A stretch of DNA of 29,360 bases. Source: a virus. This document shows, piece after piece, positions 2,275-27,371 of the stretch (its first letter is position 1; each line of letters begins with the position of its first letter). The notes below the pieces were generated by a model, which worked only from the letters and a program-made list of their open reading frames with translations, made no database searches and was not told the DNA's origin. Location of the stretch: positions 1 through 29,360 of IMG/VR virus record IMGVR_UViG_3300030099_005102. The stretch is one strand, 5' to 3'. Made by a program: the position numbers and the translations under genes.

Positions 2275-2613
2275 ATGTGGGAAGATATTCTTAAAAAAGA
2301 AAGTCCTTTTGGGGCTCGTTTTCGCTCAAAAAAACCAGATGAACCCTTTAATCCGTTTAAGGATAGTAGAGGCGTAAATGAAGCAAGAGAAGCCCAAAGA
2401 AAAGAAGCGAAGAACCAAAGAAAGTTTAAACCAAAGTGTCAAAACGACCCTTGTTTAAGAATTGCTAATGGAACTGATGGATATGGCCTTTGTATGCCCT
2501 GTGAAGATGATATGAGTAATAATCGTTTAACTGACCCTAAGAGTCCATATACAAGAAAGAACCAAATGAAAAACCCTACACTTCCAAATATTTACGTTGG
2601 TGATAAAAGATGA
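2275..2613 (+). CDS. W-motif protein with a four-Cys zinc-binding site
   Basis: 112 aa. It starts MWEDILKKESPFGARFRSKK. Residues 55-76 carry C-x4-C-x12-C-x2-C (KCQNDPC and LCMPCED), a plausible zinc ribbon or knuckle, between very basic flanks, which suggests nucleic-acid binding. A second short peptide EPFNPFKDSR (residues 23-32) recurs as EPFNPFTVRRD at the C-terminus of the 6332 protein. The end overlaps the next start by four bases. The exact zinc family is not recognised. Confidence 0.75.
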   Translation: MWEDILKKESPFGARFRSKKPDEPFNPFKDSRGVNEAREAQRKEAKNQRKFKPKCQNDPCLRIANGTDGYGLCMPCEDDMSNNRLTDPKSPYTRKNQMKNPTLPNIYVGDKR

Positions 2614-2801
2614 GTTGGAGAGATATTGTAAGAAAAGGACATTGTAAAACTGAAAAGATTGATGATGAAGAATTAAAGGCAGCAAAGCCTGACTTCTTAG
2701 ATTTAGACAAAGATGGCAATAAAAAAGAGCCGATGAAAGAAGCGGCTAAAGATGCTAAAAAGAAACCTAAGTCCAAAAATCCATTTACTCGGAAAGATTG
2801 A
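2610..2801 (+). CDS. W-motif small basic protein, 63 aa
   Basis: ATGA overlap with the previous gene. It starts MSWRDIVRKGHCKTEKIDDE. The middle segment FLDLDKDGNKKEPMKEAAKD contains D-x-D-x-D-G-N, which resembles an EF-hand calcium loop, but no helix-loop-helix pair is evident. The tail is lysine-rich, ending NPFTRKD, similar to NPFTVRRD at the end of the 6332 protein. It may be a DNA-binding cargo protein; function unknown. Confidence 0.72.
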   Translation: MSWRDIVRKGHCKTEKIDDEELKAAKPDFLDLDKDGNKKEPMKEAAKDAKKKPKSKNPFTRKD

Positions 2802-2827: not shown

Positions 2828-3139
2828 ATGGATTGGGAAGGAATTATTAAAAATGAGTTATACTCATCAAAGGTTTTAAATTCTGAAGAAAAATTCGATG
2901 GGGTTTTTAATGAAAAGAGAGACATAATCCTTCTTGAAAGATTATTTAATAGAGACGGTATAGAAAAATTTACTTTAAGTGAAATGTTTAAACTCGTTGC
3001 AATTTTACTAAGAATAGAAAGACTAAAAGCCGCAGATTTAAAAGATTATTCTTTTGATTTTTCACAACAGATTCAAAATACAATGACGGCTTTATTTAAG
3101 GCTAGTGATGCTTTAAGACAAGCAGAAGTATTTAGGTGA
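2828..3139 (+). CDS. W-motif protein, 103 aa
   Basis: Starts MDWEGIIKNELYSSKVLNSE after a strong GCAGGAGGATT site (2813-2823). The body is helical with regular Leu/Phe spacing (ILLERLFNRDGIEKFTLSEM, FKLVAILLRIERLKAADLKD). There is no recognisable domain. Its stop sits inside the AGGTGAT site of the next gene. Confidence 0.72.
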   Translation: MDWEGIIKNELYSSKVLNSEEKFDGVFNEKRDIILLERLFNRDGIEKFTLSEMFKLVAILLRIERLKAADLKDYSFDFSQQIQNTMTALFKASDALRQAEVFR

Positions 3140-3143
3140 TATT

Positions 3144-4037
3144 ATGGGTTGGTTCGACATTCTCAAAGTAGAAGATATTGACTTTGATGATGTATGTGCT
3201 AATTGTAAAGGAGAAGGATGTAACGAATGTGGAGGAACTGGCAAGTTACGGGCTTTTGGTGTATATACACTTGAAAATATTCATAGTCATCCTCTTGAAG
3301 TAAGAATGGCTATAATGGATGCTTTTGGGAGTGGTAAGAAACCTGAAATGAAAGACTTGACTAAGGAAAGAATAAGAATCAATCATAAGAAAATTTATGA
3401 TTATTTACAGCGAAGATTAGAAAGAGAACCCACAGAAAGAGAACTTAGGGAATTTATTATTAGAACCATTATGCATGAAGCGACTCATGCAGGTATGGGA
3501 TTAGAACAATTTACAATGTCTAATCGAGCAACAGAATATGGAGCAATCACTGGACAATTCCCAGAAAGCACTTATTATAGACTTAAAACATTCCTTAAAC
3601 ACCCTGCTTCTCAAACACAAATACTTCACCCTATGTTTGGAGCAATAGGACTTGAGACAGCCGTTAAAGGCGAAAAGGTAAAAGAAATTGAAGAACTTCT
3701 TGCATTTGTTGATGCATTGACCGATAATCTTTTGGGTAAGTATAAAGAGAAAGTTAGAGAAAAACTAACAAGAATGGAAATAACGGCTAGAACTCAAAAG
3801 AAGAACCAAAGCCTTAAAGACATTAATCCTGCAAGTGTTGAGGATTTAACTGATAGATACGGTCAAAAATATAAGCGATTTTTTGTTAAATTATTACTTG
3901 ATGCTGCTGGACAAATGACGGCTGATTTTGATGATTCTGAACTTAAAATGGCAGGTGCGGTAACTACTAGTTCAGCCCCCGCTATGTTTAATAAGGTGGT
4001 AAGAGGTAGAAAGAAACGGAGGAAAAAGGATGAGTAA
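3144..4037 (+). CDS. W-motif zinc metalloprotease-like protein (HEATH) with DnaJ-type zinc knuckle
   Basis: 297 aa. It starts MGWFDILKVEDIDFDDVCAN. Residues 18-34 read CANCKGEGCNECGGTGK, a single-repeat DnaJ-type zinc knuckle (C18, C21, C26, C29). Residues 110-115 are MHEATH, an HExxH zincin signature (H111, E112, H115), followed by TEYGA with Glu131 as candidate third ligand. The protein therefore has the pieces of a soluble gluzincin-type metallopeptidase; activity is inferred. The rest is helical with a very basic tail (RGRKKRRKKDE). With the N-terminal W-motif it may be carried inside the virion, acting on head proteins during assembly or on host proteins after entry. It overlaps the next gene by 8 bases. 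Confidence 0.78.
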   Translation: MGWFDILKVEDIDFDDVCANCKGEGCNECGGTGKLRAFGVYTLENIHSHPLEVRMAIMDAFGSGKKPEMKDLTKERIRINHKKIYDYLQRRLEREPTERELREFIIRTIMHEATHAGMGLEQFTMSNRATEYGAITGQFPESTYYRLKTFLKHPASQTQILHPMFGAIGLETAVKGEKVKEIEELLAFVDALTDNLLGKYKEKVREKLTRMEITARTQKKNQSLKDINPASVEDLTDRYGQKYKRFFVKLLLDAAGQMTADFDDSELKMAGAVTTSSAPAMFNKVVRGRKKRRKKDE

Positions 4038-5187
4038 GAAGAAAAAGAACTTTCAGCCACATAAAGGAAACAAAGTTAATCAAGGTGGTAGGTTTCCTTT
4101 TATTGAAAATTTTAACACTTGGAGAAAAACCTGTCAAGGTGTTTCAGGTGAAAAAATGATGGTCAAAAATATTCCTAATCTTTATATGTTTTTAAAGAAT
4201 CACATGATGAATAACATTCGGGCTAAAAGTAGAAATAAAGGCCGTGATGGTCAAGGAGCAATACAATTTCTTGAACCCATTGAAGCATTCGTAGATAATG
4301 ATTTATTTACTGAAGGACAAGCACAGATTATCAAAACGCTTGCTGATACATTAGAAAGTTTTTATCTTGAAGGTTCGGATATTGGTAATAAAAGTGCTCC
4401 TGCTCGTGACCCAGCATTTATTGTTTTTACTGAACAAGACTATACTGCAACAGGTCAGAAGAAAAGACCAAGAAAGGTTGCAGGACATTATGCAACAGAT
4501 TGGTATGCTGAAAAAAATAAAACTTCTGCTGCTCCTTCTTCGTGGTTTGCACACATTGATGCCCCCGATGGCTTTAATGGAGGAAATCCACCGCACCAAG
4601 CATTATTCTCAAGAACCAAGACGGAGTTCGCTAATCCCAAAGGTTTGCTTTGGTTAATGAAAGAAGCGACTGAATTTATAGATGATATGGAAATAGAAGT
4701 TGAAGTAGATAGAATACCCGAAGGAGTGGATGAGGTTGATTTGGATGAAATTAAATCAGTTGAGTCTTTCTTTAATGATGTTGTCCGTAATGAATCTTTT
4801 TGGAATGCAGGTGGTCGTTTATTGACTAAAAAAGTAAGGTCATCTTTACAGGCCACTACATTCGCAGTTAAGCCTCTTGAACAAAAACCAGCAAGAAAAA
4901 TTACTAATGTTGGTAAAGAGGATGAAAAGGATGCTTTAACTGGGAGGGTTGTTAGTTTTAAATTAACTGCTACTGCCCTACCTATTATTAATTTAGTTGA
5001 TAGAGCGTTAAAGAGAAAAAATACTAAAAAAGCACCAAATGATTTCCGAGCGTGGCAAGGCGACAGAAAAGGCGGTTTTGATTATAGAAAGACCGCTAGA
5101 GAAAAATTTGGTGAAGATACTGGACGATATAAACCTGAACAAAAGGTTATTTCTAAGATGTGGCAACAACTTTTATGGAGAGATTAA
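4030..5187 (+). CDS. Unknown 385-aa protein, possible virion component
   Basis: Starts MSKKKKNFQPHKGNKVNQGG with the ribosome site CGGAGGAAAAAGG just upstream. The N-terminus is basic. The centre is acidic (MEIEVEVDRIPEGVDEVDLD) and there is a further basic segment near the end. The mixture of beta-like and helical stretches suggests a folded structural protein, but I recognise no family. There is no N-terminal W-motif, yet the extreme C-terminus is MWQQLLWRD, a loose echo of it. The final WRD is encoded by GGAGAGATTAA, which probably serves as the ribosome site of the next gene, so the resemblance at the very end must be treated with care. Confidence 0.75.
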   Translation: MSKKKKNFQPHKGNKVNQGGRFPFIENFNTWRKTCQGVSGEKMMVKNIPNLYMFLKNHMMNNIRAKSRNKGRDGQGAIQFLEPIEAFVDNDLFTEGQAQIIKTLADTLESFYLEGSDIGNKSAPARDPAFIVFTEQDYTATGQKKRPRKVAGHYATDWYAEKNKTSAAPSSWFAHIDAPDGFNGGNPPHQALFSRTKTEFANPKGLLWLMKEATEFIDDMEIEVEVDRIPEGVDEVDLDEIKSVESFFNDVVRNESFWNAGGRLLTKKVRSSLQATTFAVKPLEQKPARKITNVGKEDEKDALTGRVVSFKLTATALPIINLVDRALKRKNTKKAPNDFRAWQGDRKGGFDYRKTAREKFGEDTGRYKPEQKVISKMWQQLLWRD

Positions 5188-5853
5188 ATGACCGTTAATC
5201 GTAAGCGTTGCGGTTTATGCCAAGCCCCGAATAGAGAAGAACTTGAATCGGCTCTTGAAACAGGACAGGCGAGTTGCGACGAATTAGACACTATTCATAA
5301 CTGGAGAAGTGGAACTGCGGCACAACATCAAAGAAATCACATGGGCGAATACAAAATGTCGTCTAATCCTCAATGTGTTCTATGCACAGACCCAATGAGG
5401 AAACACTACGAACAAGCGTTAAAAGAAGGTAATATCTCAAGTGAGGCTGTTTCTTCTGCCCTCAACACCACAAAAACGCAGGTGCAAAGACACATGAAGC
5501 ACCACCTGACACCAATAGTGCAAGAATCTGCGGCCATGATGATAGCGAAAAAGGAAGTTAATGAAGTTGATTTGCTATCAAATAACGTACAGAAGTTAGA
5601 TATGCGTTTAGAGCAGGTATTCAACGATTTAGGGAATGACCTCGACCCTAAGATGATTGATGCCTTAACTAAGTTAGCAAGAGAGATTAGAGAATCTTTG
5701 AAGTATCTTATGGAGTTTAAGGGTAAATTGATTCACAAGAGACAGGACACTATTATTGTCGCACAGATGCAAATTGTTCAAGAAGTGCTTGCACAAAACA
5801 ATCCTGAGATTTGGTTGGATATTAAACAGAAAATGCAGGAGAGATTACAATGA
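5188..5853 (+). CDS. Candidate terminase small subunit with two zinc-binding HTH-like repeats
   Basis: 221 aa. Two tandem copies of C-x2-C-(about 35)-H-x3-H: C8, C11, H47, H51 and C63, C66, H102, H106 (CGLCQAPNREELESAL and CVLCTDPMRKHYEQAL, then QHQRNH and RHMKHH). This layout, CxxC then a helix, then a helix-turn-helix ending in HxxxH, is common in DNA-binding proteins of tailed viruses often annotated as terminase small subunit. The remaining 115 residues are helical (LDMRLEQVFNDLGNDLDPKM, LAREIRESLKYLMEFKG), as expected for oligomerisation. It has no W-motif. It lies 6.8 kb before the large terminase. An alternative is a transcription regulator. The ending KMQERLQ overlaps the next start and is repeated at the end of the next gene. 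Confidence 0.6.
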   Translation: MTVNRKRCGLCQAPNREELESALETGQASCDELDTIHNWRSGTAAQHQRNHMGEYKMSSNPQCVLCTDPMRKHYEQALKEGNISSEAVSSALNTTKTQVQRHMKHHLTPIVQESAAMMIAKKEVNEVDLLSNNVQKLDMRLEQVFNDLGNDLDPKMIDALTKLAREIRESLKYLMEFKGKLIHKRQDTIIVAQMQIVQEVLAQNNPEIWLDIKQKMQERLQ

Positions 5854-11409: not shown

Positions 11410-12693
11410 ATGCCTAAAGTTCTCCCTGCGATTTTTTCATATGAAGATATGAAAAGTAGGTTTGCTCAAGATAATCCTGACGACCCCTATACTCGCAGGG
11501 CTGATTTAGAATCTGGTATCTATGCTTTAGATAGTTGGCTTATTCGTGTTGATGATGATAATAAAGCAATATCAACAGTTGGATTTAAAGAACATCCATC
11601 ACATACTGTTGTTGGTGGAATGTATGCTAGTGCTAAGGGAAGAGAAATTGGTGGAAATAATCGAGCATTACAGATAGCGAGAGAACCGCAGTTGAATCAA
11701 TCAAAACCATTAGTTGCGGCATTTGGACATAGAGATGGAGATAACGCTCGTTGGATTGCTAAAGCAAAACAAAACGGATGGAAGTTTCCCGAAGATAATG
11801 ACTTCCAACAGGTTTCTCAAATGCTACCTGAACAAATAGTGAATGCTTGGAATAGTGCATATCCTAATGGTAATTGGGCTATTCGTTCTATTCGTGGTGA
11901 AGGTGATTTTGCAAAGTGCGTATTTATTGACGACCCTACGCCAGCATGGTTTAATCTGTTAAAATCAAACCAAAGAGGGTGGAGAGATATTATTAAGTGG
12001 CAACCTTCTCAGCCTCCATATGAAAAATTTACAGGCTATAATACTGATTCTGGTGGCTATGTATCAATGATTCATGAAGAATTAAACAATCCAGAAACAA
12101 TGGAAACAACTGATAATCGTTTTATTGTTACAGGTCATTACATTTATAGAGGCAAGGGAGGAGAAATGAAAGGCGACGAGCCAGCAAGAGTTCCTAAACA
12201 TATTGCTAATGAAGAAAGTTTGCAGTATTTTGGAGAAAAAATTATGCAAAGCGGATTTGATGCAAAACGAGGATATTTCCCAGTTTCTAAGAATAGTAAG
12301 GTTAAGGTTTTATTTGATATTGTAGATGAGGGCGAGTATTTACCACAACAACAAGGAACAGACATTAGAAATAATAGTGGAGGCAAAGTTATAGTCTTTA
12401 CAACAATGTTTGCTACTGATGAGCCTGAAGATTCAAAATACTTTCCTATGTGGGATGATGAAGAAGAAAGTGAGCAATTGACTAGTAAAAAACCAGAAAA
12501 TAATCAATTGACTGTTAAAGAAGCAGAAAAGATGTTTAACGAATATGGAGTTAGTGGATATACTAATACCCATAGAGTAAAAAGTTTATTAGCCATTTTG
12601 AAACTTAGAGGAACCGATGAAAACAAAATTAAACAAATAGAAGAATCTCTTCAAGATTATGCAGATGGAAAGGCTGAGAGTGGTGAAGAATAA
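11410..12693 (+). CDS. Two-domain protein with internal W-motif; possible GNAT-like N-terminus
   Basis: 427 aa, start MPKVLPAIFSYEDMKSRFAQ, after AGGTGATG. Residues 35-160 have an acetyltransferase-like feel: beta strand SWLIRVDDDNKAISTVGF, then VVGGMYASAKGREIGGNNRA resembling an acetyl-CoA loop, then a helix. This is a weak fold guess. Residues 190-196 are GWRDIIK, a full W-motif in the middle of the chain, followed by WQPSQPPYEKFTGYNTDSGG. The motif therefore seems to mark the join between a first domain (1-180) and a second (200-370). A C-terminal helical unit (residues 375-427) follows. It overlaps the terminase start by one base (TAATG). Virion cargo is possible. Confidence 0.74.
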   Translation: MPKVLPAIFSYEDMKSRFAQDNPDDPYTRRADLESGIYALDSWLIRVDDDNKAISTVGFKEHPSHTVVGGMYASAKGREIGGNNRALQIAREPQLNQSKPLVAAFGHRDGDNARWIAKAKQNGWKFPEDNDFQQVSQMLPEQIVNAWNSAYPNGNWAIRSIRGEGDFAKCVFIDDPTPAWFNLLKSNQRGWRDIIKWQPSQPPYEKFTGYNTDSGGYVSMIHEELNNPETMETTDNRFIVTGHYIYRGKGGEMKGDEPARVPKHIANEESLQYFGEKIMQSGFDAKRGYFPVSKNSKVKVLFDIVDEGEYLPQQQGTDIRNNSGGKVIVFTTMFATDEPEDSKYFPMWDDEEESEQLTSKKPENNQLTVKEAEKMFNEYGVSGYTNTHRVKSLLAILKLRGTDENKIKQIEESLQDYADGKAESGEE

Positions 12694-14123
12694 TGGAACT
12701 TGAAGCCTTCAATTTTGAACATGAGATGGATATGCAGTTATCCAAAAACTCATTTCCTTATTTCTTTCAAAATGTATTAGGTTTTGATTTCCCATCATAC
12801 ATACAGGAATGGCATGAATTAATGAACACTACGCAAAGGACTGTAATTATTTGTTCAAGAGACCACGGAAAATCTGTATTTATGCATTCATGGGTTGTAT
12901 GGAAATTAATCTTTGAAGAGCCTCCATATCAAATGCTTTACATTTCTTCTAACCAAAAACAGACTTTAGTTCACATGAGAGATATTGACAAGATGTTTAC
13001 TCATCCTATGCTCAAAAAATTTAAACCTGCAAGAGGTTGGGCTATTGGAAACATTACATTGACAAATGGCAATCAAATCCTTGAAAGGTCGGTTGGTTCT
13101 CAGATTCGTGGACTTCACCCTCAAGAGATTATTATTGACGACCCTTTGAAAGAATTTAGTATGACTGGTATTCAAAAGGTTACGGATTGGTTTTATGGGG
13201 ATATGATTCCTACACTTCACCATACTGCATCTTTGCGTGTTATTGGAACACCGTTTAGTTATACAGATATTTACCAGCAATTATCAGAAAATGCTGCTTA
13301 TACTGTTAGAACATATCCGTGTTTAAATGCACTAAACGAACCGTTGTGGCCTGACCGTTGGAACTATGAGGCGTTGATGGCTCGTAAGGCAGAAGTTGGT
13401 TCTTTAATGTTCACAAGAGAATATATGTGTGTGCCTATTTCAACAGGAACATCTCTCTTTAATCCAGAACATTTGGATAATGCAAAGAATAAAGATTTGG
13501 TTTTAAAACCATTGAAGCGTGAAGGATATAAATACTTTATAGGCGTAGACCCTGCTATTTCAACAGATGGAGACTATAACGTGATTACTGTTCTTGAAAT
13601 GGATGAGAACGAAAATAAATCCATTGTATATATTGACCGAGCAAAGAACGTTCAATTTCGTGAGAATATACAGAAGGTGAAATTATTAAACCAAGTGTTC
13701 AGACCAGAAGTTATTCTGTTTGAAACAAATACATTCGCTAAATCTTTTACTCAGGAACTTCGTCAAGTCGCAGATGTAAATGTTCATGACTTCGATACAA
13801 CCCGAAGAAAGAAACAGGAGATTATTCTCAATTTACAAATGACTCTTGAAAATGGAAAGATTAACTTCCCATACGGCAACGAAGAGAGTAGAAAAGTTTC
13901 TTCTTTATTGATTGAAGAAATGTCGATGTTTGCTATTACTGAACGAGGAAAATTTGAAGGAATTGGAGCGCACGACGATATGGTTATGAGTCTTGCTTTA
14001 GCAAATGCAGCCACATATCAAGCATCAGATAACTTCATACTGCTTGACGATTTAGGGCTGTTTGGCGATGAACCACAACGGCCACAACGAGGCTATTCCT
14101 CTACCATAGGTTTGAATTTTTGA
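12693..14123 (+). CDS. terL: Terminase large subunit (packaging ATPase-nuclease)
   Basis: 476 aa, a usual length for the family. The ATPase domain shows the Walker A variant CSRDHGKS (residues 54-61), a Walker B EIIIDD (145-150) and a coupling-type segment VIGTPFSYTD (183-192). The RNase H-fold nuclease follows: FIGVDPAISTDGDYNVITV with D286, VILFETNTF with E344 and GAHDDMVMSLALA with D428/D429. These are the three expected acidic metal ligands. It would cleave concatemeric DNA and drive it through the portal into the procapsid. It has no W-motif, in keeping with a motor that stays outside the capsid. The next gene starts 10 bases later. Confidence 0.95.
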   Translation: MELEAFNFEHEMDMQLSKNSFPYFFQNVLGFDFPSYIQEWHELMNTTQRTVIICSRDHGKSVFMHSWVVWKLIFEEPPYQMLYISSNQKQTLVHMRDIDKMFTHPMLKKFKPARGWAIGNITLTNGNQILERSVGSQIRGLHPQEIIIDDPLKEFSMTGIQKVTDWFYGDMIPTLHHTASLRVIGTPFSYTDIYQQLSENAAYTVRTYPCLNALNEPLWPDRWNYEALMARKAEVGSLMFTREYMCVPISTGTSLFNPEHLDNAKNKDLVLKPLKREGYKYFIGVDPAISTDGDYNVITVLEMDENENKSIVYIDRAKNVQFRENIQKVKLLNQVFRPEVILFETNTFAKSFTQELRQVADVNVHDFDTTRRKKQEIILNLQMTLENGKINFPYGNEESRKVSSLLIEEMSMFAITERGKFEGIGAHDDMVMSLALANAATYQASDNFILLDDLGLFGDEPQRPQRGYSSTIGLNF

Positions 14124-16711: not shown

Positions 16712-17401
16712 GTGCCAATAACCAAAAAGAAGGACGGCTTTTATTGGGGTTCAAAAGGCCCATTTAAAACAAGAAAGAAAGCGGTTCAAGTTGCACAGGC
16801 GGCTTATGCTAGTGGTTATGTTAAAAAAAGTTGGTTTGATATTCTTAAAAAAAGAACTTGGCAAGGAAAGTTATCAAAGGATAAAAGTAAAATTTTACAA
16901 AGGAGTCCTAAAATAAAGTTAGATATTCCAAAAATGAGTTATCCAAAAGAGGAAACAGAAATACCTGCTATATTAAAGGTTATGAAAAAAAAGAAACTTA
17001 CACCAAAACAAATGAAAGATTCTGACTTAAAACCAGAAATAGAAATGTTTAAAATAGTTGATGCAAATAAAAAAGATTATGAAGATTTTATGAAGGACAT
17101 AAACTATTATGCCATCTCTTTAAAAATGAAATATCAAAGACCACGACCTCACGAAATTTCAGATAAAATTCAAACAACAAAAACAAAAACAGATGATACT
17201 CCTGCATTTCCAAGTGGACACTCAATGTTGGCTCATGGATTAGAAAAAGTATTAGGAAAGAAATACCCAAACAAAAGGAAAGAACTTAAAGAAATGGCAG
17301 ATAGGATTTCTTTATCAAGAATGCAAATGGGAAGTCATTATCCAAGTGATATTCAAGCAGGAAAAAAATTAGGCTATATGATAGGTGATAAGTATGACTA
17401 A
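16712..17401 (+). CDS. Soluble PAP2-type acid phosphatase with internal W-motif
   Basis: 229 aa from GTG 16712, with AGTGAT upstream. Residues 9-36 (DGFYWGSKGPFKTRKKAVQV then AQAAYASGY) form a small module that I recall in many viral proteins. Residues 40-47 are SWFDILKK, a full W-motif. The C-terminal half has all three PAP2/class A phosphatase signatures with exact spacing: K138-x6-R145-P146, P167-S-G-H170 and S202-R-x5-H209-x3-D213. The family hydrolyses phosphomonoesters, lipid phosphates or pyrophosphates through a phospho-His intermediate. No signal peptide or membrane segment is present, so it should be soluble inside the cell or virion. Substrate is unknown. Confidence 0.85.
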   Translation: MPITKKKDGFYWGSKGPFKTRKKAVQVAQAAYASGYVKKSWFDILKKRTWQGKLSKDKSKILQRSPKIKLDIPKMSYPKEETEIPAILKVMKKKKLTPKQMKDSDLKPEIEMFKIVDANKKDYEDFMKDINYYAISLKMKYQRPRPHEISDKIQTTKTKTDDTPAFPSGHSMLAHGLEKVLGKKYPNKRKELKEMADRISLSRMQMGSHYPSDIQAGKKLGYMIGDKYD

Positions 17402-22389: not shown

Positions 22390-22754
22390 TGACATGGGAT
22401 TACTATGGAGAGGGAGAAGATTTTATTCTCAAAGAAGAGAAAAAAAGACCTAAGAAACTTCTTGATTCGTTAGATGCTAAAGGAAGAAAGAAGTTAAAGA
22501 AAACACTTCAAGCGGCTGAACCAACAGAATTTTTTGGTCAAGACTTTACTAAACTGGGTGAATTAATTTCTACTCTTAAAGAATTAGAATTGGTTAAATC
22601 AGATAAGAAGTTAAACAAGAAAATGAAGTCAATGGATGAAAGGAACATTGATATAGTGGCCACTGCTACCAAACTTCGTAAAGAGTATGAACTTCTTTAT
22701 AGGCAATTAAGAGATTTAGTCCATCCAAGAGGAAAGAAGGAGGAAAAGAGATGA
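22389..22754 (+). CDS. Small helical protein with stretched W-motif, 121 aa
   Basis: Starts MTWDYYGEGEDFILKEEKKR. It has the MTW opening and the FILKEEK ending of the motif, with eight residues inserted between W and ILK. The body is basic and helical (LLDSLDAKGRKKLKKTLQAA, FTKLGELISTLKELELVKSD). No family is recognised. It ends with AAAGGAGGAAAAGAG, a ribosome site for the next gene, which starts by ATGA overlap. Confidence 0.7.
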   Translation: MTWDYYGEGEDFILKEEKKRPKKLLDSLDAKGRKKLKKTLQAAEPTEFFGQDFTKLGELISTLKELELVKSDKKLNKKMKSMDERNIDIVATATKLRKEYELLYRQLRDLVHPRGKKEEKR

Positions 22755-22996
22755 CAGAAGAAAGTATTAACAAAGATGTATTAGAAATCATTAAGGCTTT
22801 AACTGCTAAGGTTGAAGCATTAGAAAAGACCATTTATGCAAAAGATAGTCTTCTAATGAAAGCAGGTTTGGTTATTTCTGAAAGTCCTACTCCTGCTATG
22901 GATAATACCGTTGGCGGTATTGATTCATTACCTACTACTGATGTTTCAAGTATGGATTGGTCTGAAATTCATAAGATGGTTTCAAAGATGGAGTGA
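22751..22996 (+). CDS. Small protein with scaffold-like C-terminal W-motif, 81 aa
   Basis: N-terminal coiled coil (INKDVLEIIKALTAKVEALE), a linker rich in Thr/Pro/Gly, then the C-terminus SSMDWSEIHKMVSKME. This is nearly identical to the scaffold ending (AEMDWADIHKMVGGNL). A short coiled coil plus the scaffold tail suggests an auxiliary scaffold, a competitor, or an adaptor that carries the docking peptide. It ends in GAGTGATTTAAATG, coupled to the next gene. Confidence 0.72.
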   Translation: MTEESINKDVLEIIKALTAKVEALEKTIYAKDSLLMKAGLVISESPTPAMDNTVGGIDSLPTTDVSSMDWSEIHKMVSKME

Positions 22997-26096: not shown

Positions 26097-26126
26097 CTCG
26101 TTAATGGTTAGTTGGGGTTGAGAAGA

Positions 26127-27371
26127 ATGTCTTCTGCGGTGATGCGAAACAACACTTCGGATTTCAAAATTCTCAAGAGCCAAGACGATTTAATGATTGG
26201 AGGATATGCAAGCATTGAAATCGTTGATAAGCAAAATGATTTAATCACATTAAAAGCCCTTAAAGAAGCGGTTAATAAATACATGGAGAACCCGAAGTTT
26301 AGAAATGTAATGACAAATCATTCAAATGTTCAAGTCGGAGAAGTAGTAGAATCATACCGAGATAAAACAGGGAGATTGTTTAAAACAGAAGTAGATGATG
26401 TTGGATTCTTCGTAGTTATTAAATTAAGAGACGATATAGAAAAGGCCAAAGAAATTAATCGTGGCATTAGAAAAGGTTCATTAAGAAGTTTCAGTATTGG
26501 AGGACAGGCTTTAGAAAAGGTAAAGAAAACCAATAACGAATTTGGGCAATACAACGAAATTTCAAAGTTAGAATTACATGAAGTCACTATTTGTGAAAAA
26601 GGAATTAATCCAGAAGCAAAGTTTGACATATTAAAGCAAGAAAAAACAAAAAAGGTGAAAAAAATGACCAAAATAGAAAAAGCATTAGCAGAACTTGACG
26701 CTCTTATGGAAGAAGTCAATATGCTAAGAAAAGAAGAAGAAGAAAGCATGGACATGACGGACGACAAAGATAAAATGATGTCTGAAAAGTTGATGGATGA
26801 AAAAATGAAGGATGAAGAAAAGATGATGCCCGATAAAGACAAAATGATGTCTGAAAAGATGAAGGATGAGGAAATGATGGATGACGAAGAGAGAAAAGCC
26901 TATGTTCCTACCCTTGATGGTGCGGGTGTTGAAATCGGTGAACCTGCCGATAGAATCGTTATTGAAGGAGGCCGACCAAAGGCTACTGATTTACCAGTAG
27001 TTAAGGCATTTAACAACGATGAACTTGAAACCCTTGATTTGTCTGTTGGAAACATTGAGAAGGCTTATGAGGCTTTCCGACAAGAACAACTTGAAAAGTT
27101 GGCTTACGATAACCTTCAAAAGCAATTTGAGGCTCGCTTTAACGCTGAAACTTCTCAAAGAGAAGACGTTCTCGCAAAGTCGCAATATGATGCACAAAGC
27201 GAAATTGCTTCTCTTAAGAATGAATTTGCTTCCCTCCGAAAGTCTTTGACGACTGAGAAGGAAACAATTCTAAAGGCTCAAGAAGAAGCCACTATCAAAC
27301 TCCCTACAATGGATGAATTAGCCGAAATGGATTGGGCTGACATTCATAAGATGGTTGGAGGAAACCTTTGA
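26127..27371 (+). CDS. Prohead protease (S78-like) fused to scaffold with C-terminal W-motif
   Basis: 414 aa from ATG 26127 (TTG 26112 is in frame but less likely). The protease domain spans 14-165: MIGGYASIEIVDKQNDLITL, NHSNVQVGEVVE with catalytic His candidate H65, GSLRSFSIGG with nucleophile candidate S123, and a LHEVTICEKGINPEAKF ending typical of HK97-type proteases. A Met/Lys/Asp-rich linker with two 23-residue repeats follows (about 210-256). The helical scaffold (285-390) ends LAEMDWADIHKMVGGNL. The protease cuts scaffold and capsid during maturation. The scaffold tail is expected to touch the capsid interior, so its W-motif links the cargo-like peptides to assembly. Confidence 0.87.
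   Translation: MSSAVMRNNTSDFKILKSQDDLMIGGYASIEIVDKQNDLITLKALKEAVNKYMENPKFRNVMTNHSNVQVGEVVESYRDKTGRLFKTEVDDVGFFVVIKLRDDIEKAKEINRGIRKGSLRSFSIGGQALEKVKKTNNEFGQYNEISKLELHEVTICEKGINPEAKFDILKQEKTKKVKKMTKIEKALAELDALMEEVNMLRKEEEESMDMTDDKDKMMSEKLMDEKMKDEEKMMPDKDKMMSEKMKDEEMMDDEERKAYVPTLDGAGVEIGEPADRIVIEGGRPKATDLPVVKAFNNDELETLDLSVGNIEKAYEAFRQEQLEKLAYDNLQKQFEARFNAETSQREDVLAKSQYDAQSEIASLKNEFASLRKSLTTEKETILKAQEEATIKLPTMDELAEMDWADIHKMVGGNL
26664..27371 (+). CDS. Possible nested scaffold from an internal start
   Basis: In frame with the protease-scaffold gene. AAGGTGAAAAAAATG (26652-26666) gives a good ribosome site (AGGTGA) with correct spacing to ATG 26664, corresponding to residue 180 exactly between protease and scaffold. 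It would yield a 235-aa free scaffold starting MTKIEKALAELDALMEEVNM. The arrangement mirrors lambda C/Nu3 and similar nested scaffold genes. It is inferred from the site and position only. Confidence 0.5.
   Translation: MTKIEKALAELDALMEEVNMLRKEEEESMDMTDDKDKMMSEKLMDEKMKDEEKMMPDKDKMMSEKMKDEEMMDDEERKAYVPTLDGAGVEIGEPADRIVIEGGRPKATDLPVVKAFNNDELETLDLSVGNIEKAYEAFRQEQLEKLAYDNLQKQFEARFNAETSQREDVLAKSQYDAQSEIASLKNEFASLRKSLTTEKETILKAQEEATIKLPTMDELAEMDWADIHKMVGGNL
26769..26892 (+). repeat. Two 69-bp imperfect repeats encoding Met/Lys/Asp-rich linker
   Basis: GA-Y-AAAATGATGTCTGAAAAG occurs at 26769-26789 and again at 26838-26858. The encoded units begin DKDKMMSEKLMDEKMKDEEK and DKDKMMSEKMKDEEMMDDEE. This is a tandem duplication in the linker of the scaffold, probably disordered. 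Confidence 0.7.

Follow-up and report, generated by a model that had tools for sequence, protein, structure and literature searches.

What is a protein with the marks of a metallopeptidase doing among the morphogenesis genes of a tailed virus that also encodes a prohead protease? The question arises from an intact 297-aa ORF (3144-4037, +) in a 29,360-base IMG/VR virus record, analysed over its full length and called the window here, which has genes for terminase, portal, an S78 prohead protease and an HK97-type capsid. A Shine-Dalgarno-like AGGTGA (3134-3139) precedes the ORF and overlaps the stop of the upstream gene; the product reads as a putative W-tagged, gluzincin-like metallopeptidase with a C-terminal tail. 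The main landmarks are the terminase large subunit (12693-14123, +; phrog_38, E 3.6e-55) and the S78-type prohead protease (26112-27371, +; PF04586, E 3.3e-10). The peptidase had been proposed to be distinct from the latter, and so it is: the S78 domain is absent from 3144-4037 and present in its own gene. Closest to the window's portal and capsid proteins are those of archaeal viruses, first the Haloarcula viruses HCTV-5, HCTV-1 and HVTV-1, and next records assigned to Methanomassiliicoccales and Methanofastidiosa. Because of this proximity the host is probably archaeal, and the window virus is probably a tailed virus infecting archaea. The Satyavativiridae, viruses of Poseidoniales said to resemble Druskaviridae (PMC13108676), are a possible kin group.

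One way to approach the question is through the active site. The residues picked out in the first-pass annotation (W3, H111, H115, E131 and the run C18-x2-C21-x-G-x-G-C26-x2-C29-x-G-T-G-K34) are correctly numbered, and the protein reads M110-H111-E112-A-T-H115. Homologs came from pattern and tblastn scans of viral contigs (related loci carry L-numbers), the distant ones by domain-only alignment; iterating an HMM with the W-tag in it led off to unrelated tagged proteins, and subsequent searches used the domain alone. Nearer homologs share 71% identity (L013), 61% (L014) or 41-54% (others); the distant ones are L059, L089, L106 and L107. An alignment of 18 sequences (A7) covers the peptidase domain, residues 36-256 (3249-3911, +). 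In all 18, down to 27% identity, H111, E112 and H115 of HEATH (residues 111-115; 3474-3488, +) and E131 and A134 of EYGA (residues 131-134; 3534-3545, +) are unchanged; I77, R107, F139, P140, H153, P154, E212, Y239 and G240 are also invariant. The annotation had proposed a gluzincin-like site from MHEATH and a downstream Glu, and the conservation of H111, H115 and E131 supports it. L156 and L157, later additions to the family, likewise keep HExxH and the downstream Glu. H111 and H115 are predicted zinc ligands, E112 the predicted general base and E131 the predicted third metal ligand, for which H153 and E212 are the other invariant candidates; we infer metal binding and proteolysis. The metzincin pattern HExxHxxGxxH is absent, as the window protein reads HEATHAGMGLEQ and has no third His. 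The assignment as a metallopeptidase, made from sequence, is held with good confidence.

An inactive metallopeptidase fold, retained as a structural head protein, would account for the strong divergence of sequence outside the motif. Four catalytic-site residues that stay invariant to 27% identity would be unusual in a dead enzyme, however, and this account is very improbable indeed. Peptidase pairs of enough divergence give dN/dS of 0.24-0.33, that is, purifying selection.

The fold was modelled from the 18-sequence alignment (pLDDT 86, pTM 0.71); an earlier model from 12 sequences (pLDDT 65) was too poor and was set aside. In window numbering the usable model has a strand (39-45), a helix (50-62), a strand (73-79), a helix (81-92), a helix carrying HExxH (98-124), a helix carrying E131 (127-138), then more helices. 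H111/H115 and E131 are thereby placed on two consecutive predicted helices, the layout of sequence features expected of zincins. Zincin MPTases have been described as beta-alpha-beta-alpha, followed by the HExxH helix and then a helix with the Glu (PMC5512222), and the modelled order of elements agrees with that description. The loop between H115 and E131, 15 residues in the window, is longer in L089, L106, L107 and L059 with both motifs kept, as expected if a loop links two helices that carry the ligands. When an ideal two-helix hairpin is laid out from the predicted helix ends, E131 falls somewhat off the level of H111/H115; the offset would shrink if helix 98-124 stopped earlier, as insertions near residue 122 in relatives suggest. 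Foldseek searches of the model (PDB and viral models) and VIA-align gave nothing significant, which is not proof of a new fold.

The window peptidase gave no informative match in Pfam, PDB sequences or annotated phages, and none in PHROGs, where the unannotated phrog_25876 covers residues 5-40 (E 0.0007), that is, tag and knuckle only. It has no match to Peptidase_M78 (ImmA/IrrE, PF06114), for which the search controls were positive in 7 genomes. PF18818 (Polyvalent-protein MPTase) gave no hmmscan match, and none in the window record, where control genomes gave none either. Across 84,980 cellular genomes, a pattern method confined to exact short patterns detected no relative. Rows for Sulfotransfer_2, SapB_1 and a transposase fell below cut-off and were ignored. 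A crAss-like phage RNA polymerase matched L107 by tblastn (E 0.03) over a stretch without HExxH (profile 0.4 bits), and Mu-F-like proteins matched L089 at chance level (E 7-9); both were rejected. As far as these comparisons reach, the peptidase family is without a database match and is previously undescribed.

If the enzyme itself is likely to be a zincin, its whereabouts are suggested by its ends. It begins with the W-tag MGWFDILK (residues 1-8; 3144-3167, +), a candidate capsid-targeting signal in which W3 is unchanged in the 12 full-length homologs of a second alignment (A2). N-terminal tags of the form MxWxxILK or MxWx[DE]ILK occur on 13 of the 37 window genes, where shuffled proteins give 0.03; the W-motif first noticed on the peptidase is thus a real tag, far above chance. 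Another enzyme and small proteins carry it too: a PAP2-type phosphatase (PF01569; window 16712-17401) lies behind an internal W-motif, and W-tagged small proteins whose loops resemble those of EF-hands or dockerins (DLDKDGN, DANKDGKITGEDF) are found at window 2610-2801, at L011 9523-9816 and in L157, the L011 protein weakly matching dockerin and EF-hand in Pfam.

The core of the tag recurs at the opposite end of another protein. The window's prohead protease ends in MDWADIHKMVGGNL, its C-terminal W-motif WADIHK (27333-27350, +) being conserved in all 30 homologs: [ML][DEN]W[ASN][DE]IH[KR] forms the C-terminal end of 30/30 prohead proteases fetched from related records. An 81-aa window protein (22751-22996) ends in the same motif, MDWSEIHKMVSKME. 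The motif is specific to the window's group, since the HVTV-1 protease lacks it. A tag shared by the procapsid protease and many small proteins is the outcome expected if they dock at one shared site within the procapsid, and targeting of the capsid by the W-tag is moderately probable on this analysis. The first-pass suggestion of a protease carried in the head is better motivated now that the prohead protease is seen to end in this motif. The tag could also serve for docking to a partner outside the capsid.

A second perspective keeps the enzyme in the cell, as an anti-defence or regulatory peptidase whose W-motif docks to a cytoplasmic viral hub and not to the capsid. The HExxH...ExxA pattern is found in many cytoplasmic minimal zincins, and would suit such a role. 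It is nevertheless an unlikely account, given that prohead proteases conserve the tag core at their C-terminus and that the slots occupied by the peptidase adjoin terminase and other late genes.

The other end of the protein is a constant C-terminal tail (residues 264-297, the DDSELKMAGAVTTSSAPAMFNKVVRGRKKRRKKDE region; 3933-4034, +). Its pattern, AGAVTT..FN..RKKKK, and the last ~35 residues as a whole recur at the C-termini of otherwise unrelated proteins. The tail gene is always followed by a 385-aa gene (4030-5187, +), which it overlaps by 8 nt, and anchoring on this downstream gene yielded 57 distinct tail genes. Their bodies are peptidases in 14 cases and minimal in 22 (44-66 aa in all, little beyond tag and tail, e.g. 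MTWRDILKVEDDEKKMAGAVTTTSSPALFNVTYGYRRKKKKKEDDEDGKGN in L039); the remaining 21 fall into 11 clusters that are mutually unrelated by blastp. Further loci bring more bodies, including GNAT-like ones (L090 falls below cut-off against PF00583), and in L030 tag and tail are fused onto the 385-aa protein. The slot between constant tag and constant tail thus holds an exchangeable middle. The 14 tail-slot peptidases group together in a tree at 100/99, which is consistent with a single entry of the peptidase into the slot. In L014 (9644-10669), and in L015 too, the Cys-rich gene that lies upstream (YCRRCQQ...) is joined to the peptidase in a single reading frame, so that the L014 ORF runs tag, zinc-like module, tag, peptidase, tail. 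Just beyond the 385-aa gene lies a 221-aa Cys/His-rich protein (window 5188-5853). It keeps 82-99% identity among related viruses, has no counterpart in annotated phages and may be a small terminase or a regulator.

With so many tail genes reduced to their ends, the conserved unit might be the small tag-plus-tail protein itself, the peptidase being a passenger of minor enzymatic role and the tail being kept partly for the start signals of the next gene. The 22 minimal genes among 57 fit this, as does the junction: a Shine-Dalgarno-like GGAGG for the next gene (4018-4022, +) lies within the tail codons, and ~80 nt over the junction with the 385-aa gene (window 3984-4060) are near-identical in DNA in seven relatives. 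Conservation of the tail may therefore be regulatory in part. The DNA conservation of the junction exceeds what the protein needs, with an overlapping start or promoter signal a possible source. In more distant genomes, however, the amino-acid pattern of the tail remains recognizable though the DNA differs; the catalytic residues are invariant; and the peptidase domain recurs, tail-less, in a second slot. The passenger account is quite improbable.

This second slot lies beside the terminase. In the window, the gene directly upstream of the terminase (11410-12693, +) encodes a GNAT-like protein in which residues 180-185 form an internal W-motif. In L059, L089, L107, L156 and L157 a W-tagged, tail-less peptidase is found immediately 5' of the terminase large subunit. 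The L157 version is a fusion: its first half is the GNAT-like protein that occupies this position in the window, and its second half is the peptidase. A second W-tagged HExxH family, with HEAAH, HESAH or HEYSH and a downstream E[AT]YAY, also occurs beside the terminase (L156 2697-3446; L158 11617-12288 and 12281-13573), one member being fused behind a GNAT-like domain; hhalign aligned it with the window peptidase family over HExxH, at 13% probability. Near the peptidase, proteins at L106 7517-8339 and L156 7074-8000 begin IYEVGPRDGLQN and resemble HMG-CoA lyase by eye; these are possible auxiliary metabolic genes.

Distribution and rate bear on whether the enzyme serves the virus particle or acts on the host. 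The peptidase is present in 15 of 47 related virus records, some of which may be partial. Compared with L013 it shows 71% identity, where the next two genes show 88% and 99%; that is, it evolves faster than its neighbours. Patchy presence and faster evolution argue for an accessory, host-facing role more than for an essential maturation enzyme.

A helper in head maturation would enter the procapsid and act there on viral proteins, for example by trimming W-tags or scaffold, either before the DNA is packaged or afterwards. Such a role would explain the W-motif common to peptidase and prohead protease and the place of the gene among morphogenesis genes, and it has a counterpart in P1 DdrB, which is processed before packaging and for which a role of the zincin has been proposed (PMC5512222). 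About two thirds of the related records with an S78 protease lack the peptidase, however (records may be fragments), and the peptidase evolves faster than its structural neighbours. Maturation is rather unlikely as its main business.

The preferred reading is an accessory, capsid-targeted zinc metallopeptidase that is packaged with the DNA, delivered and cuts a host protein; we give it roughly an even prospect, and host-directed action taken by itself is likewise close to evenly balanced. The N-terminal helix MxWx[DE]ILK would dock on the inner face of the procapsid, at the same site as the protease's C-terminal WxDIHK; the tagged peptidase would be trapped in the head and packaged together with the DNA; once delivered into the host, its HExxH...E site would cleave a host protein. 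We infer packaging, ejection and the host target. This packaged zincin is favoured because the catalytic residues are invariant under purifying selection, the model is zincin-like, 13 of 37 genes bear the tag and its core ends the prohead protease, and further because the peptidase is accessory, elsewhere adjoins or is fused to a GNAT-like domain beside the terminase, and has precedents in T4 and P1. Against it stand the offset of E131 in the two-helix hairpin and the Foldseek and VIA searches, which returned no fold match. If it is right, it offers a direct handle, in a compact motif common to cargo and head protease, on protein loading into the heads of some tailed viruses with uncultured hosts; internal-protein delivery in the style of T4 and P1 extends to probably archaeal viruses; a zincin family without database match is added; and dozens of head-packaged proteins become predictable from sequence alone.

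The precedents are instructive for both likeness and difference. In T4, a signal of ~10 N-terminal residues (CTS) leads internal proteins into the prohead and can carry foreign proteins (PMC7697877); in P1, 30 N-terminal residues of DarB are enough to carry a reporter into heads (PMC9024508). From these phages to the window virus the reasoning runs by analogy. Like the CTS, the tag is a short N-terminal signal on many otherwise unrelated proteins (13/37 window genes). Unlike the T4 and P1 signals, it reads MxWx[DE]ILK, can lie within a protein and has its match at the C-terminal end of the prohead protease, and the window virus has many more tagged genes. Packaged zincin-bearing proteins are also known among the polyvalent proteins of phages and plasmids, such as P1 DdrB and the N4 virion RNA polymerase (PMC5512222). 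The window peptidase resembles their MPTases in being viral, in its HExxH helix followed by a Glu helix, in its predicted packaging and in its GNAT-like association (a fusion in L157); it differs in being small and single-domain, with a short tag and a tail, in an archaeal-type virus, and in having no Pfam MPTase-PolyVal match. The comparison suggests a protein akin to the packaged zincins, encoded by a tagged gene that is exchangeable. HVTV-1 (Druskaviridae, a Haloarcula virus), whose portal and capsid proteins are related to those of the window, has in its head gene cluster, after the portal, a 1048-aa gene (gp113) with one HExxH (HEMGH); gp113 has no sequence match to the window peptidase and no W-tag. 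Peptidase_M91 (PF14891, NleD-type effectors) shows a weak Pfam similarity up to HExxH (E 0.027, below cut-off), limited to one homolog, L089, and not significant.

A broader proposal considers the gene and not the enzyme: a dedicated loading gene, with tag in front, constant tail behind and an exchangeable cargo (peptidase, GNAT-like, others or none), a second slot by the terminase, and a tag that copies the C-terminal capsid-binding motif of the protease. This is tentative, and on balance doubtful. If true, tailed viruses of archaea would have in it a general system for delivering proteins.

Between tag and peptidase domain lies a double Cys knuckle resembling that of DnaJ (residues 18-34; 3195-3245, +). 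The first-pass annotation had seen in it half of a DnaJ zinc domain. The CxxCxGxG sequence is there, but it is not a feature of the family, as the window protein alone carries it; nor is a DnaJ-type element supported as part of the protein's design: two abutting CxxCxGxG units stand against the four spaced units of DnaJ (PF00684), and the Pfam DnaJ_CXXCXGXG profile gives no match. Even L013, at 71% identity, lacks the ~17 residues, reading DFDE-DLQAFG where the window stretch is longer. Missing from every homolog and in frame relative to L013, the knuckle is taken as a lineage-specific insert; seen in a single record, it may be an assembly error. A scan of the loci for C-x2-C-x-G...C-x2-C located only three further ORFs, in L009, L011 and L012. 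All three are small, W-tagged and two genes upstream of the peptidase, and the knuckle is perhaps a small module mobile among tagged neighbours.
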